Below are positions 2,596-36,506 of a stretch of 64,000 bases of DNA, in pieces (positions within the stretch are counted from its first letter, which is position 1; each line of letters opens with the position of its first letter). A model generated the notes under the pieces. That model saw nothing but the letters and a program-made list of their open reading frames with translations. It was not told where the DNA came from and ran no database searches. Source of the DNA: Paramacrobiotus metropolitanus. Taxonomy: Eukaryota; Tardigrada; Eutardigrada; Parachela; Macrobiotidae. A program made the translations under genes and the position numbers. The stretch is taken from assembly GCF_019649055.1 (NCBI RefSeq), contig NW_026570307.1, positions 310,001-374,000 on the forward strand, given 5' to 3'.

Positions 2596-2649
2596 ATTAG
2601 GTGGTGGTGACCGACAGACACCACATTTGCAAGCGGCTTGAGTATATAC

Positions 2650-3224
2650 TAGTGTTGCTTTACTGTCAGTTTTGGAACTTTACTTACTGTTTACTGTCGC
2701 ATACTTTTGTTTTACTTTACTGTTACTGTTTTTCTGCCCAAACCTTTACTGTTTATTTACTGTTTACTGTTCGCCTCAAAATTTACTTTTACTAAGTAAA
2801 CCAGTAATACTCAGTAATACTTTTTGCCAGCCAAAAATCTCAATCAAGAAAATTGTTTTGCCAAGGAAAGTTACACGGGGCACGGCATGAGTGCACACTG
2901 CGCAGTGCACCAACTGCACGTCAGTCTTGCTCATTTGGATTTTGGCAATGAATTTCGCTACAAGAAGACAAATTTCGCGCGAAGCGCGAAGGTAAGCAAG
3001 CAATTTTCGCTTGAAATCTCTGTAAATTCCAATAAAAATCGTAGTAACAAAACTAGCAATTTTCCTTTACTGTTTACTTACTGTTTACTGTCAGCCCGAA
3101 ATCTTTACTTACTTTTACTTTTACTGTTACTGTTCTCAAAAAACTTTACTGTTTATTTACTGTTTAATATTAGGCTACTGTTTACTGCCGGTTTACTTAC
3201 TGTTTACTAAGTAAAGCAACATTG
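2650..3224. mobile_element. hAT-like non-autonomous element, TTTACTGTT arms
   Basis: An exact 8-bp direct repeat GTATATAC flanks it (2642-2649 and 3225-3232). The ends are inverted: TAGTGTTGCTTTAC on the left, complement of CAATGTTGCTTTAC on the right. An 8-bp duplication with such ends is typical of hAT transposons. The arms are degenerate TTTACTGTT repeats. The centre holds CGCGCGAAGCGCGAAGG followed by CCAATAAAAATCG, a core shared with the elements at 5798 and 20437. No transposase, so it must depend on an enzyme encoded elsewhere. Confidence 0.85.
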
Positions 3225-3232
3225 GTATATAC

Positions 3233-3790
3233 GGCCAGCGCGCATATGCGCATTTGGTTATAGGAAGGCCGCGCATATGTGCAAAAGATGGCGGTGACCG
3301 GCAGACACCCCAATTTTCATGAACGCTGAACATAGAGGACCTTCGTTACGCTTCGGTCGACCAGGGCACATTTTCCGGGCGTAAATTCAGAAAAGTTTGA
3401 TTTTTTGGAAAAAGATATTACCATAGCATGCTTCAAGAAATAATTCCATCTGCTGTGGTCCACTGGGCGTGGCAATACAGAAATTATATGGTTCCATAGT
3501 AGGTACTGCATGCTGCTTTGCGAGTATTACTGTGTTGTATACAATGTTACTGCAGTACGGGCTTTTTTCTGCTGTAACTTTTTTCTGATGTTGTAACTTG
3601 TGCATGCTGCTTTATCCGGCTTTAGCCCGGGCTGTACACCCTTCCAGTTTTCGTCCACCGACGTAAGTAAGTGAAACAGACCTTCTCATGCCATTCCTGC
3701 CGGATTAGAAATTTCTAAAAATTGTCGAGGTCTCCTATCTGTTGACAGTATACGAATTATTAGGTATACGAGTACTGTTGAATTTCTAAC
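3233..3790. other. Intergenic, no gene seen
   Basis: No repeat end, gene or motif that I could support. Confidence 0.4.
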
Positions 3791-3792
3791 TA

Positions 3793-3960
3793 CAAGCCCG
3801 TTTTCAAATCTGTAGACCGCTGTAAGCGCGACGCAGTGAATAGCGCACAGTAAGGCTAGATTTTATCTACTCTACACTGGATGCATCGAATGCACTGGCT
3901 CAAGCTCACGTTTCTCAAATATCCCGCTTATAGCGGTCTACAGGTTTGAAAACGGGCTTG
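3793..3960. mobile_element. 168-bp TIR element with TA flanks
   Basis: The left end CAAGCCCGTTTTCAAA reappears inverted at the right end; the arms match over about 38 bp with one or two mismatches. TA lies immediately outside both ends (3791-3792, 3961-3962). Non-coding. Size, TIR and TA flanks fit a Tc1/mariner-type miniature element. Confidence 0.75.
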
Positions 3961-4146
3961 TATTTAAATTTTAACAACAGCCGCAGGGCATAAGCCATTA
4001 CTTTTGATCCAATTAAATCAGAATAATTTTAGTAATTTGTTTTAGTTTCTATCGCCAACTCTTGCGGCAGAATGGCTTCGCCGACTTTGCGCAAGAATTG
4101 CTCTTTTAATGTGATCTGTAACTTCTACTGGCACTTTGCTCCAGTG

Positions 4147-4194
4147 AATTATTTCTAATCATGACACTATTAAATGTCATGATTAGAAATAATT
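4147..4194. repeat. Perfect 20-bp hairpin
   Basis: AATTATTTCTAATCATGACA is followed after an 8-base spacer by its exact reverse complement. It would form a stem of 20 pairs. No element boundary beyond it was found, so it may be the remnant of a fold-back element. Confidence 0.8.
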
Positions 4195-5370
4195 TGAAAT
4201 CAAGAATAAAACAATATCATGTGTACAGTAACATTCATAACAAACGCAAGATAAGTAAGATTACATACATAACAAGTGTAACACAAATAACATGACAATC
4301 ATAACAAGTATAACCTAAGTAACGTAACATACATAAAACCTTTTTGCACGAACGGCTCGTCATACTATACGAGTAGTGATACAATAGTTTTTATCTTATA
4401 GACTTGGAGGATCCTAGTGAATTGCGCTTTGATGATCTTTACGTAAATTTGCGCATCGTGGTGCTGTCCTTTTTGGACGTGTTTACTCAACATCAACTGC
4501 GCAGGTAAGATGTCGGCATCTACAGACGGTACGGTTGTTAAAACGGTTAAAAAATGGAGGATTATTGGCGCAACAATAGTTATCTGTACAAGACGGAACG
4601 CTTCACACTTGTGCTGTGTACAGTACTGGCTTATTATACTGCCATTATATCATGTGCTTTGCACTTACGATTAGAATTTTGAGGAAATGGACCCGAAGCC
4701 AGTAGTACATGGTGCCTAATTCGAGTACGACAGTCCTGGTACGCCAAGTTGAGAACTTGGGACAATATCAAGAAATTAACTCTAAAAGTTTCGGTTTTAT
4801 GTACCAACAGTATACATTTTCACTTTTTCAGCGAGCTCGACCGACAAGGTGACAATCATGCACATAGTGCAAACGCGTTCCTATAGTGCAATCGAACGCT
4901 AACTATCCACGGATGACTGTCACCTGTAGCACAGACAGTAACAGTAGCACGCATACAGTGCCAATGATGCTTCCCTTCCTCGGGGTGGCTGTTATTTGAA
5001 AAATAATCTGCCTGTGCGCGTGGCTGTCGGTTGTTCTCGCACAACAAATTCACTGTCGGTTCGACTGCGCGCATCCTCGTAGTTGAATTTTTTCATATTT
5101 CTGTCACTTTAAGTTTAAGCATACGATTTTATATTTTGATCACCGGTGACTTACACAACCCCCATGTAACGCGCTACATGAATGGTGGCTGATCACACAA
5201 CGTGCTTTTTGGTTTATTTTTCATTGGTAAGCCAACTCATCGAAACAAAATTGAATTTGTTGGAGATTTAATCTGGACTTGAATTGTTCGGATTTGAAAT
5301 TTCTGAAATTTGTGAACGTGGCAGAGCGATTCTGTTATATTGCACCCGGTCCAATTTCTGGTTCTTCGTG
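4195..5370. other. Intergenic, no gene seen
   Basis: A/T-rich DNA with short imperfect repeats of CATAACA near 4200-4330. No gene supported. Confidence 0.4.
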
Positions 5371-5783
5371 TAACAGAGAAGTACCGCACGATGAAGCTTT
5401 ATTGACAAATAAAGACTGAACAAATACCGCGTGATATGCGGGAAGAGAACAAAGATGTCAGTCTGGCATATTATTATCTAAAAAGTGCAATGTGTTCGCG
5501 AAGTCAGTTCTTGAGCGTCTGTAAATGCGTGAAAGAATGCTGGCGGCATGTCGGACTGGCCAGACGTAGCTACGTGATGCGCAGACTGGACTCCATCCAA
5601 CGCGAGCGTATGACCGCTGAGTGGTGCTGCGAGAGAGGGACGAGAGAGCAAGTACAGCTCACCTCAGTGTGTGCGCACGCGGTATATCCGCTTTAGCGGA
5701 GAGTGCAGTGCAGCAGCGCACGTACGTACAAGAGAGAGGCGAATACGGCATGTGCGTGAGTGCAAGTACATTTAGTATGGGCG
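5371..5783 (-). repeat. 0.4-kb direct repeat, copy 1 (possible LTR)
   Basis: It matches 13220-13624 in the same orientation over its whole length at high identity, from TAACAGAGAAG to AGTATGGGCG, with small indels such as a CTCA insertion near 5662. Read on the minus strand it contains CAATAAAGC close to one end and finishes in CTCTGTTA, which suits an LTR R/U5 boundary. The copies lie 7.4 kb apart with a decayed interior. Against an LTR pair: no clear TG...CA ends and no matching target duplication. It could be a simple dispersed repeat. Confidence 0.55.
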
Positions 5784-5797
5784 AAGGATGCTCAGAC

Positions 5798-7039
5798 TAG
5801 TGCCCTGCAACGGAGTACAAAATTGCGTCCAGTCCGATCCAAACTTAAAAAATTTTATCCGAACCCAGTCCGACTCCGAATTCAAAAAATCGTACTCCGA
5901 CCAATCCGATCCGAAAATATTTTTGGCCAATCCGAACCCACTCCGATCCGATCCGAAAAATTTTCCAAAAGAATATTGCTTAATTTTATTACACATCCCC
6001 ACATCAAAAAAATTTTAATGCCGAAGTAGTTAAAAATTTTAATGCCGAAGTACCGTAACATGGCATTCAAAAAAATTTTTGCCATGTTGTCGGTAGCCAA
6101 AAGACTTCAGAATTCACAGGTACAAGTTTCTTGGGCATAATAAAGGTTAAGCTAGAGGATTTATATATGTATACAAAATTTTTTAGGTGAATTTAGTTTT
6201 TTAGCACTACAGTGTTGAAGCAATTGGAGAGGTTAGTTACCTATCCTCACTGTTAGAATATCTATCCTCACTGTCAGAAATCTATATCAGATCATTTTGT
6301 TGTATACGGTTCGGGCCACGGATTACCCACGTATTAGCCAGGTTCAAAAATAGGGACAGAAATTTAGAGGGAGGGATGTTTCCAAACGTCCGGAACTAAA
6401 ATAAATGGTAGGTGGATATTATTATATATATGATTATATATAATAATAGTATATATAATTAGAATATATTATTATTGTTATCTTAATCTCCAGTATTAAT
6501 CCAATTACAAGTGCTGCAAATAAAAATGGGAAGCCGGTGCCTAGTGAAACTGACTGAGTTGTACAACACATGTGGTCCGTTTAAACTTTAACCGTACTGT
6601 AGTAGTTATACTAAAATTATTTGATAAGACAATAACAAATAACGACATCATAACAATCGTAAAACACTCTAAATATTAAAAAGTGTCAGGAGAACTAATA
6701 AAAGGAAGTGAAAGAGAATTAACAACAGTCAACTAAACAAAAGCAGATACTTCGGTGCAAATTAATTAAGCGCAAATGGAAGCATCGCGCGAAGCGCGAA
6801 GCTGACGAAAATTTTTGTTTTGAAGGCCGGTGAAATCCAATAAAATTTAATTAATAAAATTTATTTAATTACGGATTATTCGGAGTCTTGATTGCATCCG
6901 AACCCGATCCGATCAGGTGCACATAAACTCCGAAACCACTCCGACTCCGAATTTTCCAGATTGAAATCCGTCCAATCCGGTCCGAAAATCGGAGTGAGTT
7001 CGGAGTGGATCGGATTTCCCAGTCCGTTGCAGGGCTCTA
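5798..7039. mobile_element. hAT-like non-autonomous element, CCGATCCGAA arms
   Basis: An exact 8-bp duplication GCTCAGAC flanks it (5790-5797 and 7040-7047). The TIRs are TAGTGCCCTGCAACGGA and the complement of TAGAGCCCTGCAACGGA. Subterminal arms consist of degenerate TCCGATCCGAA units: about 200 bp on the left, about 160 bp inverted on the right. An internal GCGCGAAGCGCGAAG lies at about 6787, followed by CCAATAAAATT. No transposase. The insertion sits seven bases after the 0.4-kb direct repeat ends, so it entered DNA next to that repeat. Confidence 0.85.
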
Positions 7040-7047
7040 GCTCAGAC

Positions 7048-8550
7048 TCGGTACCGCACCACTGTTCTGCACAACTCTCCGGTTGGACCCAGGTGGGGTC
7101 GCCGTTACGCGTTACGGGAGTCCGGTATCCGGTTGACCGTCCCATCGTTCACTTCTAGACCCATAAGAGGCATGCACCTCACGGCCGAAAAATCCGGAAG
7201 TCGCTCGAACGTTTTGTTGGACCGGTGATGCGTCTGTTGGCCGGCTTCTTGCTTCTCTTGGCATCGGAGTAAAATGTAAAGAAGAAAAAAGTGTTATGAA
7301 AGTTACGCAGCGCGAAAGAAAAATGTGCGATAAAATTTAATCACAGTTCCAGTGAGCAAAAAAGAGTTAAACAAAACAGATCTGTTAAAGAGATCTAACT
7401 AGAAAAATACAATTCCGTTTGTTAGGAAAATTGCTCAAAAAATTACAAAAATCTGTCCGGGGGCTTTATTCCGACTAGAATGACGTGCACGGGGACTTGA
7501 ATCTCCACGGGGTCTCCTATCTAAATGTTGGCCGGTGTACTGGGTCCGGGGCGTCGGTTCCCGCGTTACCCGTTGTAACCGGGTAAGTTCACCGAGGCCG
7601 GATGAGCACGGCTGAACGCTTACTTCCGACTCGTATCCTTTCGTTGCGATTGGAGACTGGATAGGCACTAGTGCTGATCAGACCTGGCTAAACATTTGGC
7701 AGATGTTTTTGCTGAAGTAGGGCACAACGCTCTCTTGCGCGCCCGTGAAAGATAACGCGAGTTAGTCACCACAACATTCTCAAGCCGAAAGCTAACGGCT
7801 GCGCTCATTGGTCCGCTACGTGATCCACAGATGAATTACAAAACGCAGCTTCGAAGCTGCGTTTTCAATTTCACATACACATTCACCTCCGTTGTTGTGC
7901 ATAGCCAACCGAGCTTTACACGGTGGTCACCGGAACCCGTAACATATAGTAAATATTAAAGCATTCTAATTGCTAATTTGCTAATAAAATGTGGTCAGGT
8001 ATTAATCCGCATTAATAATTTAGCCTCACTTAGATTGAAAAGTTGTTACTAGTTGTTGTTACCAGACTATTAGTGATTGTTAATTTAGTAATTACGATTA
8101 GTAATTAAAGTAATTATTATTAGTGATTACAGTTATCAATGGACATTTGTAATATTGTGCAGGTTGCGTTACTGTAATTAAGTCTAATTACATTAATTAA
8201 TAACGCGTATTAATTAGCTAAGTTACATTGAGTAAATGGATACATTCTTTTCCTCAGTTAAGTTGTAAATTATTGCATTAATTAATGACACCTCAAGCAT
8301 GCGGATTAAAACGCGCCTGCGGCCCTGCTGACAATTCGTTTGTGTGTACGCAGCACGATTCATTTAACAGTCAGTACTTGCGTTTTCTGTGGTGATCCAC
8401 TGCTTATTACTGGTCCAACGCATTTGTATTTTTTGCTGTGTGTCATCAATCGGTGACGCATTCTGCTTTCACATTTTATTTCGCGATATCTTTCTTGAGA
8501 AGATTAGCTAGGATTGATCGGGCCTACTGTCGCAATTGCGAATGCCAAGG
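7048..8550. other. Intergenic with a perfect 26-bp palindrome
   Basis: No gene seen. A perfect palindrome AAAACGCAGCTTCGAAGCTG (first 20 bases) spans 7840-7865. An A/T-rich tract of TAATTA motifs covers about 8020-8290. Confidence 0.5.
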
Positions 8551-10050
8551 CATCCTCTGTAAATGGGAAGTTGGACCGATGTCGGTTGACCAAGCTCGGC
8601 CTGCTGGTAAGTCGACCGACGGCATGGAAATCCGGCTAAGTTCCGAATTCCAAAGTTCAGTTCAGGTCGGAAATACCATATTTCCATTGTGCGAGTTCTG
8701 TAGTCGGCCAGTACGGTAATCCAGTTCAGAATTGGTCGGTTAAAACCGTTCAATTTGCTACCACGAGCCTGGTTATGACTTTATCCGAGGCAAACTGGCT
8801 CGAACATCCGGTCGTAAATTTAAGTTTTTGCGGTGGAAATGGTCGGTCGACTACTACCTTACGCTTCTGTGGCCATTAGTAGTATTTTCATCCGATAGCA
8901 TGTTGGTCGGCATCCAGTTATGCCGAGTGTTCCGCTGTTAGCCGACCTGTGGTCGGTCATAATGGTATACGACGAGTGGTCGGCCATTCCGTGCGCCGGT
9001 GGTCGACCAAGGCTGCTTGTGATGTTTCGGGTCTAAGTAGGGCCAAAACAGTTCCTTTCAGATGGATTCATCCATCGAGAGATTGTTCTCCATCTCCTGG
9101 TTTACCCGATGTCCTTCGGGGGAGCTTCGGTTTGGGCTCCGGGTACAGGTTTCTAGTTGAAAGCCAGTAGGTCTGGGTTCAAACGGAGAATTCGGCCAGA
9201 CTTTAGACGGTAGCAGTAGTGGTTCCGATCTGGGACTTCTGCCCCTTCTTCCGTCGAGTCGACATCGGTTGGTCGTTATGGTCGAGTTTTGTGGTCGGCC
9301 ATACCATAAGTTTCTCTGGTCCACTACCGTTAACAAAGTCGACTTCTGGGTCGACTTAGGCAGCGAAATCGTGGTTTCCACCGCGGTTTGCGGAGATTAA
9401 GCCTCTGGGCAGGAATCCGTTTGTTTGCTCCCACCGTCCTAGTAGTCGACATTTCTTTTACGGCTACCTCGGAAGTGGTCGACTTCTGTGGTCGACTGAG
9501 GTAGTTTTGTCAGGGTGGACATTCTGCGCTGTTGGTAGCCTAGCCGAATGGAATGGGCCACTGCCTGCGGTGACGAAGGTTACTGGCCAACCACTCGGTT
9601 CCAAAGTCTGCTACGGGTGCCAGGCAAACACCGCAGGGAATACGCGCAGTTCCGTATTCCGCACGATGTTAGCGTAATTCTTATGGGTCTATACTCCGGA
9701 GTCGGTTGGCCGGAGTAATCTACATGCTAAGATCACCGTGTAATGTAGACTTTTGTATTTGATGGTAGCAGATGTGGTTCCACGACTTGTGTTGTTAGCC
9801 AGCCGGGCATATCTGTTGGCTCCAACTGTGGCAGATGTGGTTAGAGCGATCTGCTCATGCCGTGCTAGGGAACTGGGTCGGTTTGCACAGTTCTGTCCAG
9901 GGGATTTTTGGAGGACGTACCCGTACGGTGAAAATACCGAACTACCCAGGTATGACCACGCGTTTACGAATCCGGCCGACTCATGTGGTCGAGTGACATG
10001 CTCGTGGTTCTTCTTCACGGTCTATCGGTGGGATCTGTAAAAAAACAAGC
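8551..10050. other. GGTCGG/GTCGAC-dense stretch without a gene
   Basis: The hexamers GGTCGG and GTCGAC recur many times on the plus strand, for example near 8734, 8840, 8906, 8953, 8980, 9292, 9480 and 9500. No reading frame of credible length accompanies them. The enrichment continues through 11.0-11.7 kb over the gag-like frame. If the 0.4-kb repeats are LTRs, this would be the eroded body of a minus-strand retroelement. Confidence 0.4.
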
Positions 10051-10857
10051 TGAGCACGGATGAATATTGGCTTATGACTGGACAAATACACTAGTTTAAA
10101 ATTCAGAAGTTGCAGTGTGTTCGAGGAGACAGTTATGATTTCATAGTAAGCAGTTATGCCTGTATTCGAGGAAGCAGTAGTTATTAATAGCAGTTATGAA
10201 TTTGTTTGAATCCAGTTAATTTCAATACGAGTATAAGACAACAGATCGCCTTCGGTTTATTAAATTTAACTGGTGACAGGGAATGCTTTGCGGTCAACTT
10301 GCGTTTGTATCAGCTGAAATTTTTCCAGTTTCTGCATTTAGATTGGTGACCTGTCAACAAGCGGACGTTTATGTACTGGCGTTATATATTACGTTAGCAG
10401 TTTGCACTTTTTCTTATGAGTTGAGGTCGTTTAGCCAATATCTGATGCGAGGTTCTTCGAATGTTGACTTTTCGCCATTAAAGTTTCTTTCGTTTGTGCC
10501 TCGGCTGCTTGTTTTCGTTTTATTTTAAAACTACCTGAATCATTCGTTCACTCGGTATGTGGTCCACAAAAAACGCAGAAGCGAAGCCAAAGCTGTTTGC
10601 TGTTAAACACTGATTTGCCCGTGGTGAAAAACAAGCGCATGTTAGCCCTATGGCATCCATGGCAACAAGCTTTTGAGTGACCACTGGGCTTATCCTACTT
10701 GTGAGAGTAAAAAACCCACTAGCTTTGTGTTACTCTACGTTTTGAAAAGATTCTGTGAAAATTTAAAGCTGCAAAATCGGCCCAGTGGAAGCCGAGAACA
10801 TAGGTAACAAAGAGTAGAGGCAGAAAACCTGCAAGAGATGTACAGTATTCATATAAC
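10051..10857. repeat. Dispersed repeat family A, copy 1
   Basis: It begins TGAGCACGGATGAATATTGG and ends GCAAGAGATGTACAGTATTC then ATATAAC. Those ends, and the internal order of motifs (CGCAGAAGCGAAGCC, then CCATGGCAACAAGC, then GAGTGACCACTGGGCTT), recur at 26206-26784 and 27464-28225. I find no inverted ends and no protein, so the class is unknown; a solo LTR or a non-autonomous DNA element are both possible. Confidence 0.7.
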
Positions 10858-11026
10858 AAAAGAAAGGTGTCTATTCCAAGTTCCGTGTCGTTTCTCGAGG
10901 ATGCTGTTTCTCGGCGTAAAGTTCCCTTGGGTGTTCCGGATGGGAGACTAGGTTCCATTGCGGGAACCAGTCCTTATCCCAAGTTAGCAAGAACCGGCAG
11001 ATCTCCACAGAAGTAGTCTTCTTCGC

Positions 11027-11707
11027 CTACGTCCGGTTTTGGTCGGCGATGAGGACGTCGGAGGACCTCTTTCGGTTTGCTGTCGCCGGACCACTTCGTT
11101 GAGATGTGCTGTCGTGTTCTGTTTCCTGAACCGAATGTTCCGCTTGGGACTTCTTTGCTTTGGCTGCCTGTTTCTTCAGTTTCTGCGCATGCGGTCGTGC
11201 ACCAGGTGCCAGGTCGTCTGACACCAGGTGCCAGGTCGTCTGGGTCAGGACCGCTTCGTGGCGGCGCCTCAGTTTCTTCCACTCGGACCGTTGGTTTGGT
11301 CGGCTCGACTCCAATTTCAGACCTGTTGACGGTTGTTTTCTGTTCCAGACTGGTCGGTTGGGTTTGACCGATTCCTTCTGACCGGCTTCTGTGGTCGGTT
11401 GCTGTTGACCGACCATTTGGGTCAGCTGGTGTTGGCCGACCTCTTTAGTCGCCATATCCATGTGCGGCGAGGTCGACTCCTGCGCTTCATCCGTCTGGTT
11501 GTGTGATTTGCGTCCGACCACGGTGGCTGTCGTAGCCGTTACCGGGTCTTGAGCTTTATGTGAGCTCCTCTGAGTTCCTTCGGTTGGATCTGAAGTGGTT
11601 AGTGCACCATGTGGGCACTCCTGACCGGCATGAGACAATGTCGTCTCAGCCTGCGGCTGTGCCGCACACCCCCCCTCGGTCGGGTGCGACGCGGCTGCCG
11701 AGTCCAA
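11027..11707 (-). CDS. Gag-like low-complexity open frame (minus strand)
   Basis: A 226-codon open frame starting with ATG, rich in Q, T, S, K and E. It is repetitive in the middle (VGQHQLTQMVGQQQPTT) and has a basic C-terminal third with KKLRRRHE and KKQAAKAKK. There is no zinc knuckle, protease or polymerase signature. It lies inside the interval bounded by the two 0.4-kb direct repeats and on the strand expected if those are LTRs, so a degenerate gag is a reasonable guess. Its codons overlap the GGTCGG-rich plus-strand pattern, so some of its composition may reflect that repeat. It could also be non-coding. Confidence 0.35.
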   Translation of the reverse strand: MDSAAASHPTEGGCAAQPQAETTLSHAGQECPHGALTTSDPTEGTQRSSHKAQDPVTATTATVVGRKSHNQTDEAQESTSPHMDMATKEVGQHQLTQMVGQQQPTTEAGQKESVKPNRPVWNRKQPSTGLKLESSRPNQRSEWKKLRRRHEAVLTQTTWHLVSDDLAPGARPHAQKLKKQAAKAKKSQAEHSVQETEHDSTSQRSGPATANRKRSSDVLIADQNRT

Positions 11708-12163
11708 GCTGTCGTCCGATGTGGGGTTGGAGTCGGCGAGGAGGATCCGCTCGTTTCGCTTCTCCCTTGCCTCAGCCGACTTAATTGCCGTCCGGACCGG
11801 CGTACCGGAGTACGGCGCTATCGTTGTTGCACACCGGGAGTAATCGGGTTTGTATTACTTGGCATATTCGTTCTTCTTCGGATTCGACATTGTTATCGAA
11901 TCAAGTCGGTTCAGGTGGAGCCTATAAAGACTTGTTGCTTTTAACCGTAAAATCGAACTATCCCTTCTATGGGGACGTTCGATGAAATCAGCTTCTTTTA
12001 GTTCAGGATCTTTCGAGGGTCAGGATCGTCCGACGAGATGTTGTTGCTGTTGTTGTGTCTGTGTGTGACTCAGTACACAAGGTTATTATACAGTACTATG
12101 GTACAGTACAGTATGCTATAGTAGTACAGTGGGGTACGTCCTATGCTGCTGTGCTGACCAGTA

Positions 12164-12360
12164 TGACGTCACAGGGTTAAGTGGTCTTGCACTTTATTGC
12201 CTACGTCACAGATAGCAAGCCGCGTGCAAAAGTCTTGAAAAATGATGATTCACGCCTATGTTAAGCCACGCCTATGCTCCCTGCACGCATTCACGCCTAT
12301 GTTCCCTGCACGCTGATTGGCTGCCCTCTGAGTACTGAAAATCGGGCTTTCTAACGTCAC
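12164..12360. promoter_or_regulatory. Promoter-like block: CRE and CCAAT motifs
   Basis: A full palindromic TGACGTCA lies at 12164. Further ACGTCA motifs lie near 12200 and 12352. An inverted CCAAT (GATTGGCT) lies at 12314, and CACGCCTATG occurs three times at 12251, 12267 and 12292. A similar mix precedes the minus-strand coiled-coil frame at 42.4-42.65 kb. A regulatory role is inferred from motif content only. Confidence 0.3.
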
Positions 12361-13219
12361 GAGGAAGTTTGAGAATTTTTGCGTTATTTTCCGCGAGAAA
12401 AACAAATTATTTTTGGTCGGCTAAAAAGTTTATTTGGTCAAGATTTTATATCCTGCCCGTTAGAAATAGGTTTTAATAATTTTAAAATGTTTCTGAAGGT
12501 TGAAGCTCCGTTAGAAATAAAAATCAGAACAATTGCCGACCTGTTGTCGGTTAGCCTTTGTTAAGTTAACAAACTCCGGTTTCTCCGGTAAAAGTAAAGT
12601 TTTTATGTCGGTTTCTCCGACAAAAAAATTTACTTTTCGTCCGTTGAAAAACTAAAATTAGTAGTTAGAAATGAATTTCAGCCGTTAGAGAGCTGAAATT
12701 CGATCGAATTTCGACGAATGTCGATTTATAAAAGCGACTTTACAGGTTTTTTACGGTTTCGGTGTCGGTAGAGATCGGCTATCCGCTGTTGTGGGTCGAA
12801 ATCCGTCGTTTCCTGGTCGAAATCCGCGAGTAAAGTTGCGGGTCGCTGTTCAAAACGAAGGTCCCCGTATGATAGGAGAAATTTTTTCGCGCTGCAGGCT
12901 CTCGTTCGAGCCTGATCCGTCAGTTGGGGGTGGGAAGGGAATTCCGCACGTGCGGGAATGAGTGCTTTTCTTCTGTGGAAGATTGAGGAACTGTGCTCAG
13001 TGCTCACCAGCTGTGGCAGGGATCGCTTCAGCGGTCAACCTGTTTACCCTCAGCTGTAAGACGGCAAGATGAGTCCGATCAACGGTTGAAGCAGAGGCTG
13101 CTTTAGCAGTCAATCCGACAACAACCGTGTGGGTTCCTCTCGAGTTCTCCGAAATAAAGCCTGTACCGTCTCCTCAGACGGTTCGTGAGATCGAAAACCA
13201 ATATGAATCTGCTACTATC
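12361..13219. other. No gene seen
   Basis: Short GGTTTCTCCGGTAAAA-type near-repeats near 12570-12640. Nothing else that I could support. If the direct repeats are LTRs this would be the 5' leader of the minus-strand element. Confidence 0.3.
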
Positions 13220-13624
13220 TAACAGAGAAGTGCCGAGGACTCACTACGAAGCTTTATTGACAAATAAAGACCATACAAATACCGCGTGATCTGCGGGAGA
13301 GAACAAAGAAGCCAATCTGGCCTAATATCTAAAAAGTGCAATGTGTTCGCGAAGTCAGTTTTTGAGCGTCTGTAAATGCGTGAAAGAATGCTGACGGCAT
13401 GTCGGACTGGCCAGACGTAAGCTACGTGATGCGCAGACTGGACTCCATCCAACGCGAGCGTATGACCGCTGAGTGGTGCTGCGAGAGAGGGACGAGAGAG
13501 CAAGTACAGCTCAGTGTGTGCGGTATATCCGCTTCAGCGGAGAGTGCAGTGCAGCAGCGCACGTACGTACAAGAGGGAGGCGAATACGGCATGTGCGTAA
13601 ATGCAAGTACGCCAAGTATGGGCG
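13220..13624 (-). repeat. 0.4-kb direct repeat, copy 2 (possible LTR)
   Basis: Partner of 5371-5783 (see there), in the same orientation and colinear throughout. Differences include GTGCCGAGGACTCACTACG against GTACCGCACGATG near the start, and loss of a few bases near 13515. In the minus-strand reading it would be the 5' LTR upstream of the gag-like frame. The flanking sequence diverges immediately at both ends. Confidence 0.55.
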
Positions 13625-14509
13625 GAGCACCACGCGCAGGCTCGTCCGCCTGATATTCGTTTGGTTTTTCATGGAAATTTTATAAAGTTTATGCTTCAAA
13701 ATTCTTGAGCGAAGTTTTTTACTATGAAAACTACTTATTTCTGGTTTTATTTGCCAGGTAATTTTGTTTGTCACTAATCACATATTGTCAAGAAATTTTA
13801 ACACCAGGTGACCGAAACAAGCAGACGTACACGAAGTTTTTGAAGTGACCGAAATATGAGGAAAACCGAAGGCAATTTACTGCGAATCGAAATCTTTTGG
13901 CGTGTCTTTTGATGTCTGTAATGTCATTCAAGTCTCACTCAGTCTCAGGAGGGGGGAGTTGTAGTGGTCATTTTAAAATTATTCAACTTTCACATGACCA
14001 GGTGGTATTTTGTCGTAAACCTTTGTCGAAAATATTGAGCGCCACAAAAGGTATCTGCTACGGGTAGACAAAAGGATCTTAAGCGATCTGTGAACGCATG
14101 CGGCCGCAATGTAACAATACCTGATTTGCGATAAGCGACCGGACTAGTACGCTTGCCCGAAAATCGCGAGCAAAAGTCAAAAAAAGTAATTAAAAAGTAA
14201 TTAAGACTGTGCTAACTAGGAACAGGCATGGTCACAGAGACGGGCCCGACTACCAAAAGTGACAACTGGTAGGCGGTAAGTGCACATGCACATGCGAGAG
14301 GTAAAACGATGGATGAATCACAGGAGAAGGGAGAATTTGGTCTGCCCTGTGTCTGCCCGTGGCCGGTCCATCGCGCGTGCAGTTTTTCGCAAGGCGAAAG
14401 AGGCAAGCATCCCTTTCAAACGCATGACGCGGTGCCTCCGAGTCATAGTATCTATAGCATGGGTACTAGCCGCTTGCTTATCGCAAATTCCGAAATGTAA
14501 CCGGCTCCC
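13625..14509. other. Intergenic, no gene seen
   Basis: Overlapping short open frames around 14210-14515 on both strands show no family motif. Confidence 0.4.
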
Positions 14510-14683
14510 TGACACGTCGGCTGCCCGAAACTTCGGCCGCCCGACAATTCGCCCGCCTCTTCGATTCGGCCGTAAGAAAACCTACGAAACCTAAGAAACC
14601 CTATGAAAACCTAAGAAAAACAAAAACATATCAGGCAGCCGAAGTGTCTGGCATCGGAAGTGTCATGCGGCCGAAATGCCAGG
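14510..14683. mobile_element. Fold-back element with TTCGGCCG arms and CCTAAGAAA core
   Basis: The left arm carries CTTCGGCCG and ATTCGGCCG units; the right arm carries the inverted forms GCCGAAGTG and GCGGCCGAAATG. The core is CCTAAGAAA/CCTATGAAA. It is a compact relative of the element at 24580-25322 and shares its core with 1921-2595. Confidence 0.55.
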
Positions 14684-15854
14684 ATACCGTTGTGAACAGC
14701 ATTGCCGTTATTTTGTCAGTGAACCAGTTTGAACGTAACTCTGGGCCACGGGTGCTTGCAAGCAGACTTAGGGCAGTTTCGCGTTCTTTGTACTTGTGAA
14801 AGTATAAGTAGTACAAAGGACGTACCAAAAGTAAGTTTCCCGATTTTGCCTCTCTGCCATCTGAAGTAATACACAACTGATACAATTTTTGTTAAATAAG
14901 CAGTTATGTAAAATACCCCGGAAAATTAGAATTAAATGGTTTGATGAGGAACGGAAGAAAGGAGAAATAGAATGACTTGTACCACTTTTTCAGCTATTCC
15001 ACGGACCTTTTAAAAACCTGTTAATTCTTTTGTGTCACTTTCGCTTCCCCAGTCCAATTTTTGGCAATAAAATAAAAGTGTTAATTGTAAATAATATCCT
15101 TAATATTTCTGTGGTGGCAGATCTTTTTGGGAAGTTCAGGGGTTTGAGTAAAAATTTCCTTCCTCATGACACCAAATTTTATCTTATTCAGCCTTCTCGC
15201 TCATATGAATTCAAGGTTCTTTGCATCAATGAAAAGAACTTTTTATGCGCAGTTATGCGCATCTAAGTAACTGCGCATCTAAGATACCAGTGAAGTTAAA
15301 GTTACAGCGAGGACAATAAATTTTTTCATGAAATTTTTATTTTTTCACCGTCTAGAAGTAGGGCAATTTCGTGGTTTTTGCACCTAGTCACCGATAGTTT
15401 CTGTTTTTCCGGCAAACCAATATGAACAAGTTGGTTTTGTTTAGTAATTGAGATTAGAAGAGAGAAGAATACTGTACTTAACTTGAAGACGCTTTGATTG
15501 TTACAAAAAGTTAACAGGATGTTTGAGAAAAATTGCAAAAACTGTCCTGGTAAAATCCGTGGCAAAGTGCGAAAAAGTGGTCGACGAATATTTAGGCATT
15601 TCTTCTCGATTTGAATCATTTGATTGCTCTTTGACCAAGGTATATTTTACTTCTTTTCCTTAGTGAAGGACATTCATATCTGTAGGGATAATAAGAGCTA
15701 AAAGCATTTGCGCTGGGAGAGTCAAAATAGAGAAACTTACTTTTGGTACGTCCTTTGTAAGTACCATAAAATATTCCCATTTGCCGCTAATTTCCGCTTT
15801 CTGCAAAATAATAACATTGCAAAATTTACAGTACTTTACTTTCTTTACTTTTAG
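14684..15854. other. Intergenic, no gene seen
   Basis: A/T-rich. GTACAAAGGACGTACCAAAA at 14811-14830 reappears inverted at about 15742-15761 (TTTTGGTACGTCCTTTGTA). This could mark the ends of an undefined ~0.95-kb element. Confidence 0.4.
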
Positions 15855-16612
15855 GACGTGTAAGTGGTTCAATCACTTACTTTGCTGTGATACCATTCAG
15901 CAGAGCCTATGTTTACCACTGAATTCTACGAATGTGCTCAAAACTCTACAACTGTATTCAGTGCAGCAATTGGACGAACACCAAACGACTGTAACTCACG
16001 TACTGTGCACTACTGTAACGAAAAAAGTCAGATTTGTTCATCTCATTGGTAACTGGAAAAAATGCCTGCACACAGTGGTACTGCTGTTGCGATTTCTGCG
16101 TGTGGAACTCCATTGGCTAATCATCGCTGAAAATTCCGCACTAATGTTTAACGAGTTCTTTGATTTTCCGAACCGATGGCCGATGCTGCACACCAATGAC
16201 AACTTCATAACGTTTCAGGGAACATATCGGCGGGCGCCTGATTATGCCGCAGTCTGCCATAACATTCTATTTCAAAGATGCCGCTTTGACAGCCAACCAT
16301 CCATATGTTTCAAATCGATATCTTTTTTGAACGATTACAATGGAATAAGCTATGCGAGCCCGGCCGCACGTTCCTGTCTGGCTTGCTGTCAGAAGCCATT
16401 CCGTGTTAAACTTCCTTATTGGCATTACAACTTTGCGAAATCAACTACGTGTACATTGTCAGCATCCTTGCGAGCAGCGCTGGAACAGTTCTGTCCCGAT
16501 CTTCCGGACAGTGATGCCACTTCCCTCTTGAACTGGATGAGTTCTCTAACAGCAGATGATCTAAGAAGGGAATCATGTATTTGGCCCTTCATTTCGTTGT
16601 GCTATGAACTGT
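15855..16612 (+). CDS. Unrecognised long open exon candidate
   Basis: The frame stays open for about 277 codons from 15781, unusual for this region. It has no ATG until residue ~122, but a consensus acceptor (TTACTTTTAG) precedes 15855 and a consensus donor (GTGAGT) follows 16612. It would therefore read as an internal exon. The deduced peptide is fairly rich in Cys, Leu and Ser, for example SCLACCQKPF, and shows no known domain. No partner exons were found, though a Cys-rich frame at 16604-16800 could hold one. It may be an orphan gene or chance. Confidence 0.3.
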
Positions 16613-17027
16613 GAGTTTGATTCCTGTACATATTCGAGTTTACGACAGCATCTCCCTTCTGACCAGGCGAACAAACAGCTCAGAAAATGGGATAGAGACA
16701 GTTGTTGTTTTGTCTGCTCTCGGAAAACGGTAGTGGGCTGCGCTGACCCACATGCACACATTCGGTTTGTCGAACCACGAACAATGAACACTGATGGCCT
16801 AATAATTCGAACGTCCACAATAATTCGAAATTTTTCAACAAACTGCAGCCTCGAAATGGGAACTATGACTACAACGCGTCAATCGCGTCAATCACGCGTA
16901 GTCGTAGCCACCGGGTTGTTGACTGCATTGTAGTACTATGTAATACCGCGTACGCATACACGAGTAATTTTGCTTGGCTGCGACCTTTTCCCCATGCTTT
17001 TGAAGTGTATCATGGTAGTCTACTACA

Positions 17028-17942
17028 CAGAGCCTAAAATAGTGTCAATTATTAGACACAAGTGTCAATCTTTAAAACTGTATGTCAAGCTTTACGGGAA
17101 AAACTGTCAATCTTTGATAGACGAAAAAAAGAGGGGGTCTGCGATTTAAAAAAATAATCTATAAACGTGGATTATAAGATTATTTGTTACACGTTTATAG
17201 ATTATTTGTTACATTTAATTGCCCGAAAGTCGAAACGCACTGCCAGCTTAATCATTAGTCTGTACATCAGCATAAGGCGCTCAGTTTCTAAGAGCATATC
17301 ACAACACAGAGCCATATTATTGTTTCGAACGAACGGCAGTATTGAATGCTGGTCGGGAGTGCTGACTGCTGAGTCGTCGCCGGCTCGAGCTGTAGCGGGA
17401 GGCAACCCCGCATTCGTGTATGTACCGTAGCGCCTTGTATCAGTGTGCAAGCTTTTCAAAGACTCGTTTCGCTATAGAAGTACCGTGAGTAACAAAACGC
17501 AGCGGAACTACTTAGACGTCCAGATTAACATGCCGCCTTTAGCTGAGTTCGGTTTGCGTCCTGCTGTTAGGCTTTGGGCCACTAATTGGCTAAGAGAAAA
17601 ACCCGCGCCCAAAGACCAAACCACCGATTAAAGATACTGGTTATTCTATTGGTGTGCATCGTTAATTTTCTTGTTCCATCAGATTTTTCTTGTTCCATCA
17701 GTACTACAGAATTATGTTTTCTTAGGCTATCTAGTAGGCCATTTTTTATACAGGGGATTATGCTATGATTTCAAGTTACGAAAATTAACAGCAATACGCA
17801 ACGCGCATCGTTGCGATAACCTTATGTACAGCGTTTGGCATTCACAATACACACAAAAATATTTGTACATGCTTTTCGAAGTTTACAAAATCTGCGCCCC
17901 CAGGGGGTGTCAATCTTTAAAATTCCACTATTTCAGGCTCTG
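17028..17942. mobile_element. hAT-like non-autonomous element, 915 bp
   Basis: An exact 8-bp direct repeat CTACTACA lies at 17020-17027 and 17943-17950. The TIRs are CAGAGCCTAAAATAGTG and the complement of CAGAGCCTGAAATAGTG. GTGTCAATCTTTAAAA occurs near both ends. No transposase frame inside. Starting with CAGAG and making an 8-bp duplication is characteristic of hAT elements. Confidence 0.88.
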
Positions 17943-17950
17943 CTACTACA

Positions 17951-19449
17951 GCCTGGCCACGCCAAGCTTGGACAGTTGCATAAAATAAATTAAAAAATAC
18001 TTTTGTTCGTCATTATGTTTCTCTTTTAACACTTTTCTAGTGTGACTTTTTATTGCGGATCTAGTAATACCAAAACTGGGATCTTCTGATATATCGCTAA
18101 GCAGGTAGGCGGTGATTAAGTGGGCGGGGCAGTGGTCGTTTTTAGGGCGCTTTTAACCGTCCCTCTAGAAACTCCACGAAACTGAATTTTTCAGTGCATT
18201 TTTTTGAAAACTATATAACTGCTCAAAGGGTGTCCTTTACGGTTCAGCAAATCAGCCCTGCGCGATCGGCCTTAGTGGTAAGTCTGGTGACCTCACCTCA
18301 AAGGTTGTCTCCCATAGACTTGTATGTTATAACACACCTGCCAACGAACGCGGTTGCCTAGCGCACAAATGTGGGAGATTTGAAGTTGTCCATGAAACAT
18401 GGGTCCAGTAACAAGATTTTAATGAATTGACAGCTATCTATCACATGCGGGATGATGCAAGTGCCGGACAACTGGAAGAAGAATCTAACAAAGCGGTGAC
18501 TAAAAATGTTATGATTGATATCATAATTCGTTGGTACGAAACGCATCGGGTTTTTTGTGGGAATGGAAAACATAGATTAGACGGATAGTCATCCATAAAC
18601 AAGATTTTATCAAGATTGGATAGATACGACCTCTCACGGCTGTACGCCGAGCGCCCGAAAAAGGTCATCACACATTTTGGAGGTCCTCACAGAAAGGCTG
18701 CAAAGGTCATGTAGTCTTGGTAGAAATCGGGCTGTGCTAGGCGCCGTCTGGAAGAGAATTGGTTGGCCAATACCATGAAATTAATCAGTCTAGACTAGGA
18801 AAGGTGTGGAATTTATAAACGATTTGTGAAATGGGAGCTGCATCCCCGGGCAGATGGGTAGAGTTACATTTCGAAGCTGGTCCGTTCTAGTTTCGATCTT
18901 ACTGTAATTCTGGACATGCTTTCAGCGCAAAAACTATAAATGCAACAGTTGCTGGACACATACGCTGATAATAAAAAATTGTAATTCGATTTTAAAAGGG
19001 ATAAAAGGTGGCCACTGGCCAGTAAATGGCACAGAACATGTTACTTCTTTTATTTCGTGTAACTATCTGCCTTTTTTAAAATTTATTTTGAACTGCAATT
19101 ACTGCATACACTTCGATTGTTTTACAGAAGTCTGACTTGCTACCGCAAAATAAAGCTTAAGTCGCAAAAGCAAAATACTAAGTACTCTGTAGTTACAGGT
19201 TAATAATAAAAGTTAACATCAAATTAACCCTCCCGGATCAGAGCTTCATTCTTATTAATTATGAGCACGGACTTTTTTAGACGACACCCCACACGCCATT
19301 CGGTTTTTTGAATAAACCGATTGCAGATTCGGAAACAGCAAATTTTTTCGACCTAGAAAAACTATCCCACCTTGAAAAATAAAATGTCGCCCCTGAGGGG
19401 TCCAGCGCCCCACACAATACCGCCACCTCCGGCGGTCGTAATAGCGCCC
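17951..19449. other. Intergenic, no gene seen
   Basis: No gene supported. CCCATAGACTTGTATGTT near 18311 resembles CCCATAGACTTTGTATGTT at 29766 and CCCGTAGACTTTGTATGTT at 23609, so a further dispersed repeat touches this region. Confidence 0.4.
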
Positions 19450-19716
19450 CAAGGGGAAATGTTGTTTTTTGGGTTTCAACCACATATTCTAGTCAAAGCA
19501 AGTGCGCTGATTCTGAATCCATCATCAGTGAAATTATAAAGCGACTCGGTCACAAGTTTCGGGGACCTCGACACACTTAGTTTAGACCTGTCTCCAAAAC
19601 TTAAAAATCTGGTAAATGAGTGGTTTTTCAATTTTTCTAATGGGAGATTTTGAATCAGCGCACCTGGTTTGACTAGAATCAGTGGTTGAAATCCGAAAAA
19701 CAACATTTCCCCTGGG
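19450..19716. repeat. Long inverted repeat, ~70-bp arms
   Basis: The left arm starts AAGGGGAAATGTTGTTTTTT and continues through GGGTTTCAACCAC, TTCTAGTCAAA and GTGCGCTGATTC. The right arm carries the same segments in reverse complement at about 19645-19715. The spacer is about 120 bp. No target duplication identified; probably a fold-back element. Confidence 0.7.
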
Positions 19717-19792
19717 GTGCTCATAATTTATGAGCAACAATTTCATTTTTTTATAAAGGTTACTCCATTGGGTACGAAACTTAATAGACAAT

Positions 19793-20297
19793 GGTATAGG
19801 TCAATTGCATTTGGGTAACCGATGCGCGTCGGGTAAAGGAGGAACGCGTAAAAATCTATCCATGACTCAGCGAAAAAATTATCGTCCAATCGTGAGTCGA
19901 GTACGCTTCCGTGTCAAGAAAGAAATTGAACAACTGAAAATTTGAAGTGAAACTGAAAAATTTATTTTTGATACTTTAGTGTGGTACTACGTCCAAAAAA
20001 TGTTTATTCTGAGTTTAGAAGTGTGAATCTGGGTCGCTGGATGCACTTTTGGTTCAAACAAACAAAACTTTTGTTGATCTGTGCAGGAGAGGTGCGAGTT
20101 ACTCGTAGTTTGGGTAACGGTTGCGCTTCGACGTCGAAGCGCAACGGTTACACGGACGGGTAAACTGAAAACCCATCCCAGAATTCTCTTTCACCAATCA
20201 AATCGTTTACCTGCTTACGCGCCGTGACGTCATGTTTTTTTACCCGACCGCCGCTTGCGCGTCGCGTAAGGCTTACACAGAGCAATTGACCTATGCC
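19793..20297. mobile_element. TIR element, GGTATAGGTCAATTGC ends, 3-bp flanks
   Basis: The ends are inverted with one mismatch (GGTATAGGTCAATTGC; complement of GGCATAGGTCAATTGC). AAT lies directly outside both ends (19790-19792 and 20298-20300). A GG start and a 3-bp duplication would suit PIF/Harbinger, but AAT is not its usual target. A perfect 24-bp palindrome centred on GACGTC lies inside at 20121-20144. Confidence 0.55.
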
Positions 20298-20436
20298 AAT
20301 ATGTTAAAACATTTTTCATGCTGCTTTTAAGAGTGAGTCTGTGTTCTTTAGTACATACCTGATCGTCGGTGGACCTTTAGCCTTCAGTTTAAAATTTTAT
20401 CAGCACGCTGCTACATGAAATTTAATATGATGTGAC

Positions 20437-20886
20437 CAGTGATGGGTTACTGAGTAGACATTAAGTAAAAGAAAGTTAACTCAGTAATCAGTAGCCTGCC
20501 TAATATTAAGCATTCAGTAACGAGTAACGTTTTAGACCTGTAGTAACAGTAACAGTAACAGCAAGTAAGATTTTCAAACTAACAGTAAAAGTAAGTTAAA
20601 AGTAGGGAAAAATTCTGACTGGCAATATTTTTACTGACAATACGATTTTTATTGGAATTTCTTACGATTTCGCAATAAATTTTCTCGTCACCTTCGCGCT
20701 TCGCGCAAAATTTGCTTCCTTACATAAGCTTTAGTTATTAGTACTTGGCTTACTGATTGTGAGTAAGTAACAGGAAGTAAAAGTAGCGTTTGCGGCAGCG
20801 AAAAAGTAACAGTAATGTAAGTCAGAAGTAAACAACAATAAAAGTAAGCAGGTGGTCCAAAAAGCTCATGCAGTAACCCATCACTG
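20437..20886. mobile_element. TIR element with (GTAACA)n arms and CGCG core
   Basis: The exact 15-bp TIR CAGTGATGGGTTACT pairs with AGTAACCCATCACTG. Arms are degenerate AGTAACAGTAAC. Internally, in the opposite orientation to 2650-3224, lie CGATTTTTATTGGAATTT and CCTTCGCGCTTCGCGC, the shared core. The CAGTG start is hAT-like, but the 8 bases outside the ends (GATGTGAC and AATTGATT) do not match, so the duplication is lost or the ends are recombinant. Confidence 0.7.
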
Positions 20887-24579: not shown

Positions 24580-25322
24580 AAATCCGCGTCCGATCACTTC
24601 GGCCGCGTTACATTTCGGTAGCCATTTCGGCCGCACAGGTTCACTTCGGGCAACACTCAATTCGGCCAACGCTCACTCGGCAACTTGACATTTCGGCCAT
24701 CATAGGTTTTCTTGGGTTTATTACGTTTTCTAGGATTTTTAGGTTTATTATGGTTTTTTGGGTTTCTTAGGTTTTTTAGGTTTCTTAGGTTTCTTAGGTT
24801 TCTTAGGTTTCTTAGGTTTCTTAGGTTTCTTAGGTTTTCTTTGGTTTTCTTAAAATTGTTATAGTTTCTTAAGTTTTCTTTGATTTTGTTATGTGTTCAT
24901 AGGTGTACTTAGGTTATCCTTAGGTGATTTATGATACATTCATTTTTTATGTTTTCCTAGATGTCTTACGGTTAGATTTTCAGTACCCTCCCGGTAGGCT
25001 TCGTGTTTTCGAAAGTGAGACATGATGGTGACACTAACGCTTCAAGAACTGATCAAACAAATTGCGCGTGCAGAACGATATGAATGCGGCCCTATTGCTA
25101 TCACTTTTGATTCGACGGTTTAAAGTTTCCGACAAATTTATATCGAAAGTAACGTTTTAATGAAAGTAATGAAAACAAAATGAGCGTCGGCCGAAATGTA
25201 CTGTGGCCGAAGTGATCGGCGGCCGAACTGAATGACGGCCGAAGTGAATGGCGGCCGAAAAACTTTGGCCGAAATGAACGCGGCCGAAATGAAAACGGCT
25301 GAAGTGATCGGTAGCCGGACAA
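24580..25322. mobile_element. Large fold-back element: TTCGGCCG arms, TTAGGTTTC core
   Basis: The left arm (24592-24710) repeats CACTTCGGCCG and CATTTCGGCC units. The right arm (25185-25320) repeats the inverted units CGGCCGAAGTG and GGCCGAAATG. Between them TTAGGTTTC runs in tandem at about 24765-24835 and then decays to TTAGGTTTTC. A unique tail (24890-25180) precedes the right arm. No coding. Same architecture as 14510-14683 and the same core as 1921-2595. Confidence 0.65.
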
Positions 25323-26784: not shown

Positions 26785-26884
26785 CAGTTTACGGGATCTA
26801 CATCCGTACACAAACTTTTGCGGCGCAAGTTTATTACGCAATGCACACTTCGCAACGGTTGATCGCATTGGTCCCAGCCGCTAA

Positions 26885-27085
26885 GAAAACTACGAAAAGT
26901 AAGAAAGAGAAAATCTATGAAAACTTGAGAAACCCTAAGAAAGCCTAAGAAAACTAAGAAACCAAAGAAATCTAAGAAACCTGAGAAACCTAAGAATACC
27001 TAAGAATACCTAAGAAACCTGAGAATACCTAAGAAAACCTAAGAAACCTAAGAAACCTAAGAAACCTAAGAAACCTAAGAAATAT
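26885..27085. repeat. CCTAAGAAA nonamer array
   Basis: About twenty units of CCTAAGAAA and variants (CCTAAGAATA, CCTGAGAAA), most regular at the distal end. It is the complement of the TTAGGTTTC core seen in the fold-back elements. I could not identify inverted arms here. Confidence 0.85.
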
Positions 27086-35670: not shown

Positions 35671-36506
35671 ACATCTCCCAGGAATATTATCCAGGAATAT
35701 AATAACGTAAGAAGGCCAATGAGACGGCGCATGTTTTGGAAGGCGAAGGCGAATGCGTACCGCTCAAAAGGCGAAGGCGAAGACCACTCATACCTAGCCA
35801 TTTTTGAAAAACATTGTACAGTAGTTCTTCCTATTATATATACGTCTGGCCACGCCGACTTTACCTTGGCAGATAACATTTTAAGCATGCGCTATGGTTA
35901 CTCGGTGTTAAACAGAAATATACTAATTTTTCCCAACTTGTAGCTTGATATTTTTAGGGATGGACATAAAATATCGGAATAACAGAAAATACCTAAAATT
36001 ACTGACTGGCGAATCCCGACGTTGTCCAATTTATGCGGCAGATCGTCAAAAGCTTTGTGAGTGTCAAAGTGGATTTAATTAAGTTTGGTATTGATCAATC
36101 AAGACACACAGTACCCTGAAGTAAAAAAATCGGAGCAGCAAAGATAGCTTTTTTTTACTGGGAACAGGTTACCGTCCATGGGAATCGACCCACTGAATAA
36201 AAAATAGAATTAATAATTCGATGAAAAAATGAATTTCCAGCGTGAAAAAATAATTTCGATAATTCGACGAGAAAAATCGTGATTGGCTGGTTGCGGATAA
36301 GCCCCGCCCCCAAGCCGAACAATCGAATATTAAAATTCAAAATTTAAAATTACGTAATTGGTCCAGTGGCTAACGGAAAATGGCACCGTTGGTACCGGGT
36401 GCAAACACCTGCAACCTTGCTCTTCTTCAACTTCCAAATCAGTGTGTGTGAGTAAATCGAATTTTCAATTTCTGTTCTTGTGTGGACGATAATTTTATTT
36501 CTTACA
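35671..36506. other. Upstream region of the zinc-finger gene
   Basis: No gene seen. GGCGAAGGCGAA-type short repeats lie near 35739-35780. Confidence 0.4.

Follow-up and report, generated by a model that had tools for sequence, protein, structure and literature searches.

A stretch of 64,000 nucleotides from the genome of the tardigrade Paramacrobiotus metropolitanus (NW_026570307.1:310001-374000, in the following the window) contains three miniature inverted-repeat transposable elements (MITEs), here numbered 1 to 3 (Table 1), that share a core of about 70 bp. In the whole genome (169.8 Mb, 533 contigs) this core recurs in about 12 families of non-coding hAT-type MITEs that differ in their terminal inverted repeats (TIRs). 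For three of these families the arms surrounding the core were traced to autonomous hAT elements, and the core is absent from the four parental copies that were fully covered. We put the chance at about one in two that the core is a cis-acting module, working at the level of DNA, that has spread among hAT lineages and aids the amplification of MITEs.

Architecture and frequency of the core

The core is a two-box module. Box A follows the pattern TTTC(GCGCGAA)nG and is separated by a linker of mostly 29-30 bp from box B, AGAAATTCnATAAAAAT. With up to three mismatches, TTTCGCGCGAAGCGCGAAG matches the genome 522 times as opposed to 38 times for the reversed pattern, and the exact two-box pattern GCGCGAAGN{28,32}GAAATTC is present at least 179 times as opposed to once for its reverse. 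One hundred loci (L001-L100) were fetched at exact 15-mer or 19-mer matches, 79 of which were kept after removal of overlaps and analyzed together with the window. With a profile derived from 100 seeds, 122 cores were detected in this set, a number that is not independent of the seeds. The loci were picked by box A alone and the conservation of box A is therefore partly a matter of ascertainment. Box B is free of this effect and, allowing two mismatches, is present in 104 of 119 cores compared with 25 of 121 in letter-shuffled sequence. The two boxes are 28-31 bp apart in 87 of the 104 cores containing box B, while the sequence of the linker is variable. Two GCGCGAA units are found in box A of 100 cores, one unit in 16 and three units in 3 (119 cores). 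The core at L103 (585-665) resembles loci from other arm clusters along a stretch of about 80 bp, at 79-88% in most cases, whereas similarity to loci of its own arm cluster extends along the arms as well.

Some possible identities of the boxes were considered. The hexamers in box B (TATAAA 31 times, ATTAAA 12 times, AATAAA 11 times, others more rarely) fit a polyadenylation signal as well as a TATA box and decide for neither. Box A (TTTCGCGC) resembles what we take to be the E2F/DP consensus and is a candidate E2F-type binding site only. In Brassica, E2F sites have reportedly been amplified by MITEs; our literature search for E2F sites amplified by MITEs retrieved nothing, that report included. 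A viral origin of the core was also considered and set aside, TTTCGCGCGAAGCGCGAAGNNNAC being without exact match in viral_contigs.

Families of hAT MITEs carrying the core

When the cores are masked, the arms of 82 entries fall into 15 BLAST clusters with 22, 21, 12, 5, 5, 4, 3 and 3 members and seven singletons; these are single-linkage clusters in which several TIR types are lumped together. A joint score of at least 27 for a 16-bp TIR and an 8-bp target-site duplication (TSD) is reached by 39 of the 82 entries (37 with eight of eight letters, two with seven of eight), as opposed to none of the 199 mismatched left/right pairs that were left from 240 after same-cluster draws had been skipped. 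At least 12 more entries have TIRs of the same families without a clean duplication found by the script, among them element 3 and element 2, in which an exact one is present. The remaining 31 entries were not assigned to TIR elements, and several of them run off the fetched stretch. The roughly 12 TIR families with a core have ends of the CAG, TAG or CAT type and comprise elements of about 290-1240 bp. The elements combine 8-bp TSDs with TIRs and, in three families, with ends in common with an element encoding a hAT transposase. Judged by these features, those in the window are hAT-type MITEs and are predicted to be mobilised by that transposase.

Twenty-nine of the 82 entries hold two or more cores on the same strand. 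Among the 39 spacings in these tandem arrays, 18 measure 141-173 bp, which is close to the nucleosome repeat, and seven measure 74-87 bp (examples are L054, L061, L065 and L021). One weak core match on the opposite strand was noted in L075. The order of cores within arrays is kept only weakly between families. Donor- and acceptor-like sequences beside the cores in L042, L054, L055 and L089 could be read as belonging to introns or introners, a reading that was dropped because comparable cores lie inside TIR elements with TSDs. Locus L049 contains a 5S rRNA match (2689-2807, E = 4.8e-24) about 1.1 kb away from a core.

Autonomous parents of the arms

The genome holds at least 53 matches to the hAT dimerisation domain, and parents were found for the arms of element 2 and of the CAGTGATGTCCC and TAGAGCCCTGCACG families. 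The search gave no autonomous parent of elements 1 and 3. The TIR CAGTGATGTCCCGTTT bounds two autonomous elements of about 3.9 kb with hAT frames, L106 (TSD CCTTATAC) and L107 (TSD GTCGGCGG), and the MITEs in L063, L066, L007, L052 and L104 combine the 5' 180-190 bp and the 3' 130-140 bp of L106/L107 at about 90-93%. L112, L114 and L115 have the TIR of element 2 next to the dimerisation domain, as do L127 and L119 in a form with one or two differences. Element 2 itself is arranged as 3' arm, interior, core and 5' arm, the two arms being those of the autonomous element reconstructed from L128 and L115 (Table 1), the TSD of which is imperfect. The third TIR, TAGAGCCCTGCACG, occurs in L125 and in L126+L129 (TSD ACAAGGAT). 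In BLASTP comparisons of one exon pair each, the first and second autonomous groups (CAGTGATGTCCCGTTT versus element 2 type) show no similarity, and the second and third (element 2 versus TAGAGCCCTGCACG type) are 38% identical over 138 amino acids.

No core resides inside the four autonomous copies that are fully covered (L106, L107, L128+L115 and L129+L126). Weak core matches in L129 fall outside its element, and the best core score in the 5' 700 bp of the four copies is 3.7 bits, with shuffled sequences reaching up to 7.3. As far as can be told from sequence comparison, the ends of several hAT parents surround one module that those parents lack. The core-bearing MITE in L103 is nested between the gene frames of a hAT transposase and has TIRs of its own, with no clean duplication seen.

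Position, orientation and conservation

In all three families with a known parent, the core is oriented such that the hAT 3' arm lies to its left and the 5' arm to its right. In the CAGTGATGTCCC and TAGTGCCC families, similarity to the 5' end of the parent breaks off 172-189 bp away from the TIR and at most about 15 bp from box B; in element 2 the right arm has its inner margin about 15 bp beyond box B. In 40 elements with 16 TIR labels (38 with a score of at least 28 plus elements 2 and 3, added by hand), the distance from the core to the right TIR has a median of 177.5 bp and a range of 145-390 bp, and that to the left TIR ranges from 131 to 985 bp. After merging by hand into 12 families represented by rounded medians, the right distance amounts to 174-193 bp in seven of 12 families, i.e. 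within an interval of 25 bp (null mean 3.5, P = 0.0023), compared with three of 12 families for the left side. Seven of the nine families with a single core fall into the 25-bp interval, which was reached in none of 20,000 simulations.

The common orientation may also reflect common descent from an old core-bearing MITE lineage, the ends of which were successively swapped for those of active hAT elements and to which the core itself brought no advantage. In several arm clusters the multi-core arrays all point in one direction, the cores in first position of groups A and B show an identity of 0.87 as opposed to 0.74-0.77 at other positions, and elements 1 and 3 are diverged relatives, all in line with such descent. 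The effect of array position is, however, weak overall (0.762 for the same and 0.744 for different positions), and common descent alone leaves unexplained that boxes and spacing are retained amid changing surroundings. We regard this alternative as possible, if on the unlikely side. The core may have spread either through repeated capture at deletion junctions or through recurrent swapping of the ends that surround an old core.

Conservation of the core exceeds that of the arms in 12 of 13 same-family pairs whose arms are 70-90% identical; among close copies (arms more than 90% identical) this is so in just 20 of 37 pairs. The latter figure is what would be expected of a neutral passenger, an easily recombining stretch copied among MITEs by template switching without a role of its own, and the numbers of units in box A are also distributed as slippage predicts. 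It is difficult to reconcile such a passenger with the excess conservation in the more diverged pairs, with the non-random position of the core and with the fact that box B and its distance, in contrast to the linker, are kept across families, and we consider it improbable.

Same arms with and without the core

Six further places with a TIR of the element 3 type were found, one of them with a core (L132) and five without one in the fetched stretches. L131 has both TIRs, a different interior and no core. In L133 and L136, about 200 bp of the arm are followed by a shared repeated interior that starts at the expected place of the core, and the similarity of L134 and L135 to the element 3 type covers merely 60 and 31 bp; the stretches L132-L136 are about 420 bp long each and may have a core deeper inside. 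Of six CAGAGGTTGCCC places, five have a core and L142 has none within 391 bp. Since elements with the same arms exist without it, the core is dispensable for some insertions.

Presence and absence between the same arms, together with the sharp borders of the roughly 80-bp similarity, would be compatible with the core being itself a tiny mobile element that uses hAT MITEs as insertion sites. Neither TSDs nor inverted ends are apparent around the core, as judged by eye in aligned copies and not by a systematic search, random insertion would not lead to a common distance to one TIR, and L131, L133 and L136 show another interior rather than an empty site. A mobile element of this kind is very improbable.

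The interiors just mentioned have features of their own. That of L133 (205-426) is part of a repeat with at least 41 matches, distributed over several contigs and with same-strand pairs about 10-19 kb apart; perhaps it represents long terminal repeats. The interior of the element in L131 (element at 1-542) contains an inverted repeat, AGTGCGCTAAGCA...TGCTTAGCGCACT, and is perhaps a nested foldback element.

A putative cis-acting module and its possible mode of action

If the core is a cis-acting module, each family would combine the ends and subterminal repeats of its own autonomous hAT parent with a core foreign to that parent. The transposase would be expected to bind the parental subterminal repeats. 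The core would have become attached to the parental 5' arm, at its inner edge or close to it, in one orientation and sometimes in tandem, possibly while internally deleted elements formed, via gap repair with template switching or via exchange between MITEs. Core-bearing MITEs may then have out-multiplied others through a cis effect of the core, the likeliest route being that it binds a host protein or a shared protein that aids transposition or replication-coupled amplification. We infer the capture route, the functionality and the binding partner of the core, and its role in amplification from its spread, its box spacing and its position. Conserved boxes at a near-fixed spacing around a free linker point to DNA binding, and a putative role as a binding site is our best guess because the spacing is nearly fixed, the linker is free and covariation at the RNA level was not found.

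The latter result bears on the idea that the elements are transcribed into a conserved structured RNA or ribozyme. A two-unit box A can indeed fold (TTCGCGC-GAA-GCGCGAA), and the second hairpin is a good one in a few families (L008, z = -3.9; L004, z = -3.1). Yet RNAalifold, applied to an alignment (A1) of 47 cores, i.e. 42 of 51 listed cores and five others (of the nine listed cores not used, three have an insertion or three units, four have a single unit and two are diverged), predicts four pairs, located in box A and without compensatory change. The mean z of the second hairpin is -0.44 over the 35 of 75 cores that passed the filters, and the first hairpin is lost in one-unit cores. A search of 16 core loci against Rfam gave a 5S rRNA outside of the core as the sole match over the cut-off and five weak matches below it. 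A functional RNA is hardly credible on these grounds. The sequence CTGACGA...GAAA presumably corresponds to a hammerhead-like pattern; a hammerhead-like ribozyme was rejected, with letters needed for it absent in many families and Rfam and covariation giving no support.

Several findings weigh against a cis-acting module aiding amplification. The family merging, the 25-bp interval and the 130-bp margin behind the position test were all set after the data had been seen, and the other five of the 12 families lie at 145, 148, 208, 276 and 390 bp. In the TAGAGCCCTGCACG family, homology to the parental 5' end stops about 136-143 bp from the TIR, leaving a gap of about 55 bp to the core. The families are not all independent of each other, as exemplified by elements 1 and 3 and by the TAGnGCCC group, and a source locus for the core did not come to light. 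An absolute requirement for the core is made less likely by the core-free elements with shared arms and by close copies, in which the core shows no extra conservation.

A further-reaching version of the cis-acting module has to be taken as one joint claim: the core would be a transferable amplification cassette, a parasite of parasites carried by many hAT lineages; a single host or shared protein would recognise it at a fixed distance from the 5' end, and it would determine which of the deletion derivatives rise to high copy number as MITEs. That all of this applies we consider unlikely. If it did, transposon ends would be interchangeable and the cassette would be the unit that persists. It has long been asked why so few of the deletion derivatives of DNA transposons rise to abundance as MITEs. 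With about 12 hAT families containing the module, parents of some of them in the same genome, and core-free elements with the same arms as natural controls, a cis-acting determinant of amplification is directly testable.

Comparison with known systems

Ordinary internally deleted hAT MITEs (Ds-like) have the ends of an autonomous hAT element, are non-coding, are flanked by 8-bp duplications and have interiors of their own. The elements described here differ in that one interior module recurs across many families. Short interspersed elements (SINEs) are retroposons with a head derived from an RNA gene, a retroposon tail and no TIRs, whereas we are dealing with DNA elements bounded by TIRs and flanked by TSDs; the Rfam search of the 16 core loci yielded neither a tRNA nor a SINE match (no ARAGORN scan was made). 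The central domains of SINEs (CORE, V, Deu, Ceph) are common to distinct families, in Helicoverpa with a length of 62 bp, and are thought by the authors, in the passages concerned, to help retroposition (PMC3272025).

The closest precedent found in our literature search is that of the CMITEs of Acropora corals. According to the passages describing them, families with different TIRs have one conserved internal region of 75 bp of unknown origin, which is mostly without obvious similarity to the presumed autonomous parent AmiPB1 and for which the authors likewise suggest a role in transposition (Wang et al. 2010, PMC2872659). An internal region kept across different TIRs and absent from the parent is thus common to both systems, as compared by description and not by sequence. 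CMITEs are, however, piggyBac elements of about 100 bp with a TTAA duplication, six families of which keep a CC[C/T]T end motif (PMC2872659), and neither this duplication nor these ends are found in the elements studied here. The latter belong to hAT, have 8-bp duplications, measure about 290-1240 bp and form about 12 TIR families with ends of the CAG/TAG type; the arms were traced to autonomous parents in three families and most families have a common distance to one end. Tandem arrays, as described for CMITEs, consist of whole elements, while in the hAT MITEs several cores lie within one element. As far as those passages go, our observations extend to hAT what has been described for piggyBac MITEs in corals (PMC2872659). 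In the rice Stowaway MITE Ost35, internal sequence enhances transposition by the related Osmar transposase (PMC3660474), and a possible role of internal MITE sequence in transposition is, by analogy, the point of likeness. Ost35 differs in being a Stowaway element moved by Osmar, and sharing of the sequence across unrelated families is not described in the passages on it (PMC3660474).

The three elements of the window

The original prediction, made from the window alone, had described three TIR elements with a common core, and their coordinates are exactly right, as are the exact 8-bp duplications at two of them, GTATATAC and GCTCAGAC. No exact 8-bp duplication is found at element 3 (flanks GATGTGAC / AATTGATT). 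As predicted, GCGCGAAGCGCGAAG is common to all three (2977 and 6787 on the plus, 20692 on the minus strand); the third copy, thought to be slightly altered, is in fact exact. The second motif, CCAATAAAA, does lie downstream of it on the same strand in each element, and occurs five times in the window compared with 1.38 expected. Of the outer 20 bases of the TIRs, 13, 17 and 17 pair in elements 1, 2 and 3, respectively. That the arms are wholly different holds for element 2, which contains 17 copies of TCCGA (at most four in shuffles) and resembles the others in the core only. It does not hold for elements 1 and 3, which, in core orientation, are 74% identical over 268 bp with the core included and, in the left arm, 77% over 87 bp. 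Their supposedly different repeat units are one unit, TTACTGTT, that had been read on opposite strands; TTACTG is counted 17 times in element 1 and seven times in element 3 compared with at most two in shuffles. Elements 1 and 3 are diverged relatives of each other, and element 2 is unrelated to both. The TIR type of element 1 also occurs in L062, L085 and L091.

Table 1. Positions of the three MITEs and their parts in the window
Feature	Position	Strand	Description
Element 1 (W1)	2650..3224	+	575-bp hAT-type MITE, TIR TAGTGTTGCTTTACTG, TTACTGTT subterminal repeats
Element 1 TSD	2642..2649 and 3225..3232	.	both copies GTATATAC, identical
Element 1 core	2973..3041	+	box A 2973-2991, linker 2992-3021 (30 bp), box B 3022-3041
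Element 2 (W2)	5798..7039	+	1242-bp hAT MITE, TIR TAGTGCCCTGCAACGG, TCCGA subterminal repeats
Element 2 TSD	5790..5797 and 7040..7047	.	both copies GCTCAGAC
Element 2 left arm	5798..5964	-	3' end of autonomous hAT (L115), 83% over 168 bp
Element 2 core	6783..6850	+	box A 6783-6801, linker 6802-6830 (29 bp), box B 6831-6850
Element 2 right arm	6866..7039	-	5' end of same autonomous hAT (L128), 78% over 174 bp
Element 3 (W3)	20437..20886	-	450-bp hAT-type MITE, TIR CAGTGATGGGTTACTG, TTACTGTT repeats (GTAACA on + strand)
Element 3 core	20643..20710	-	box A 20692-20710, linker 20663-20691 (29 bp), box B 20643-20662

The window by itself does not make a compelling case for a shared core. The 15-mer with up to three mismatches matches three times, as compared with a shuffle mean of 0.95, and five of 100 shuffles reach three matches. 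A profile search of the window retrieves the three known cores and no others, that of element 1 with an nhmmer E value of 1.1e-17 from a profile that had this copy among its seeds. The genome-wide search for the core, with clustering by arms and a check for 8-bp duplications, bore out a constant core with differing arms. Arms and core do not always co-vary, as is evident from the core-free stretches L131, L133 and L136. The observation behind the prediction is thus partly confirmed. Its interpretation is partly supported: renewal of arms by local repeat expansion is contradicted by element 2 and two other TIR families, the arms of which are ends of autonomous hAT elements, and template switching is conceivable for the joining of the core to hAT ends and not for the renewal of repeats.

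The window contains further repeats. Arrays of the 9-mer AGGTTTCTT / CCTAAGAAA are located at 2386-2482, 24703-24852 and 26881-27082. They occur in either orientation and form long inverted repeats by pairing with each other. Two minisatellites (47593-48225 and 49578-50060) are built from a unit of 27-29 bp around ACCGGCGAAAATCCCT, the former with additional longer periods of 149 and 178 bp. An open frame at 36480-37298 has a BED zinc-finger match barely over the cut-off and a C2H2 finger below it. Core-free foldbacks with arms of 78-112 bp and 79-90% complementarity are situated at 2287-2587, 19448-19717 and 48953-49153.

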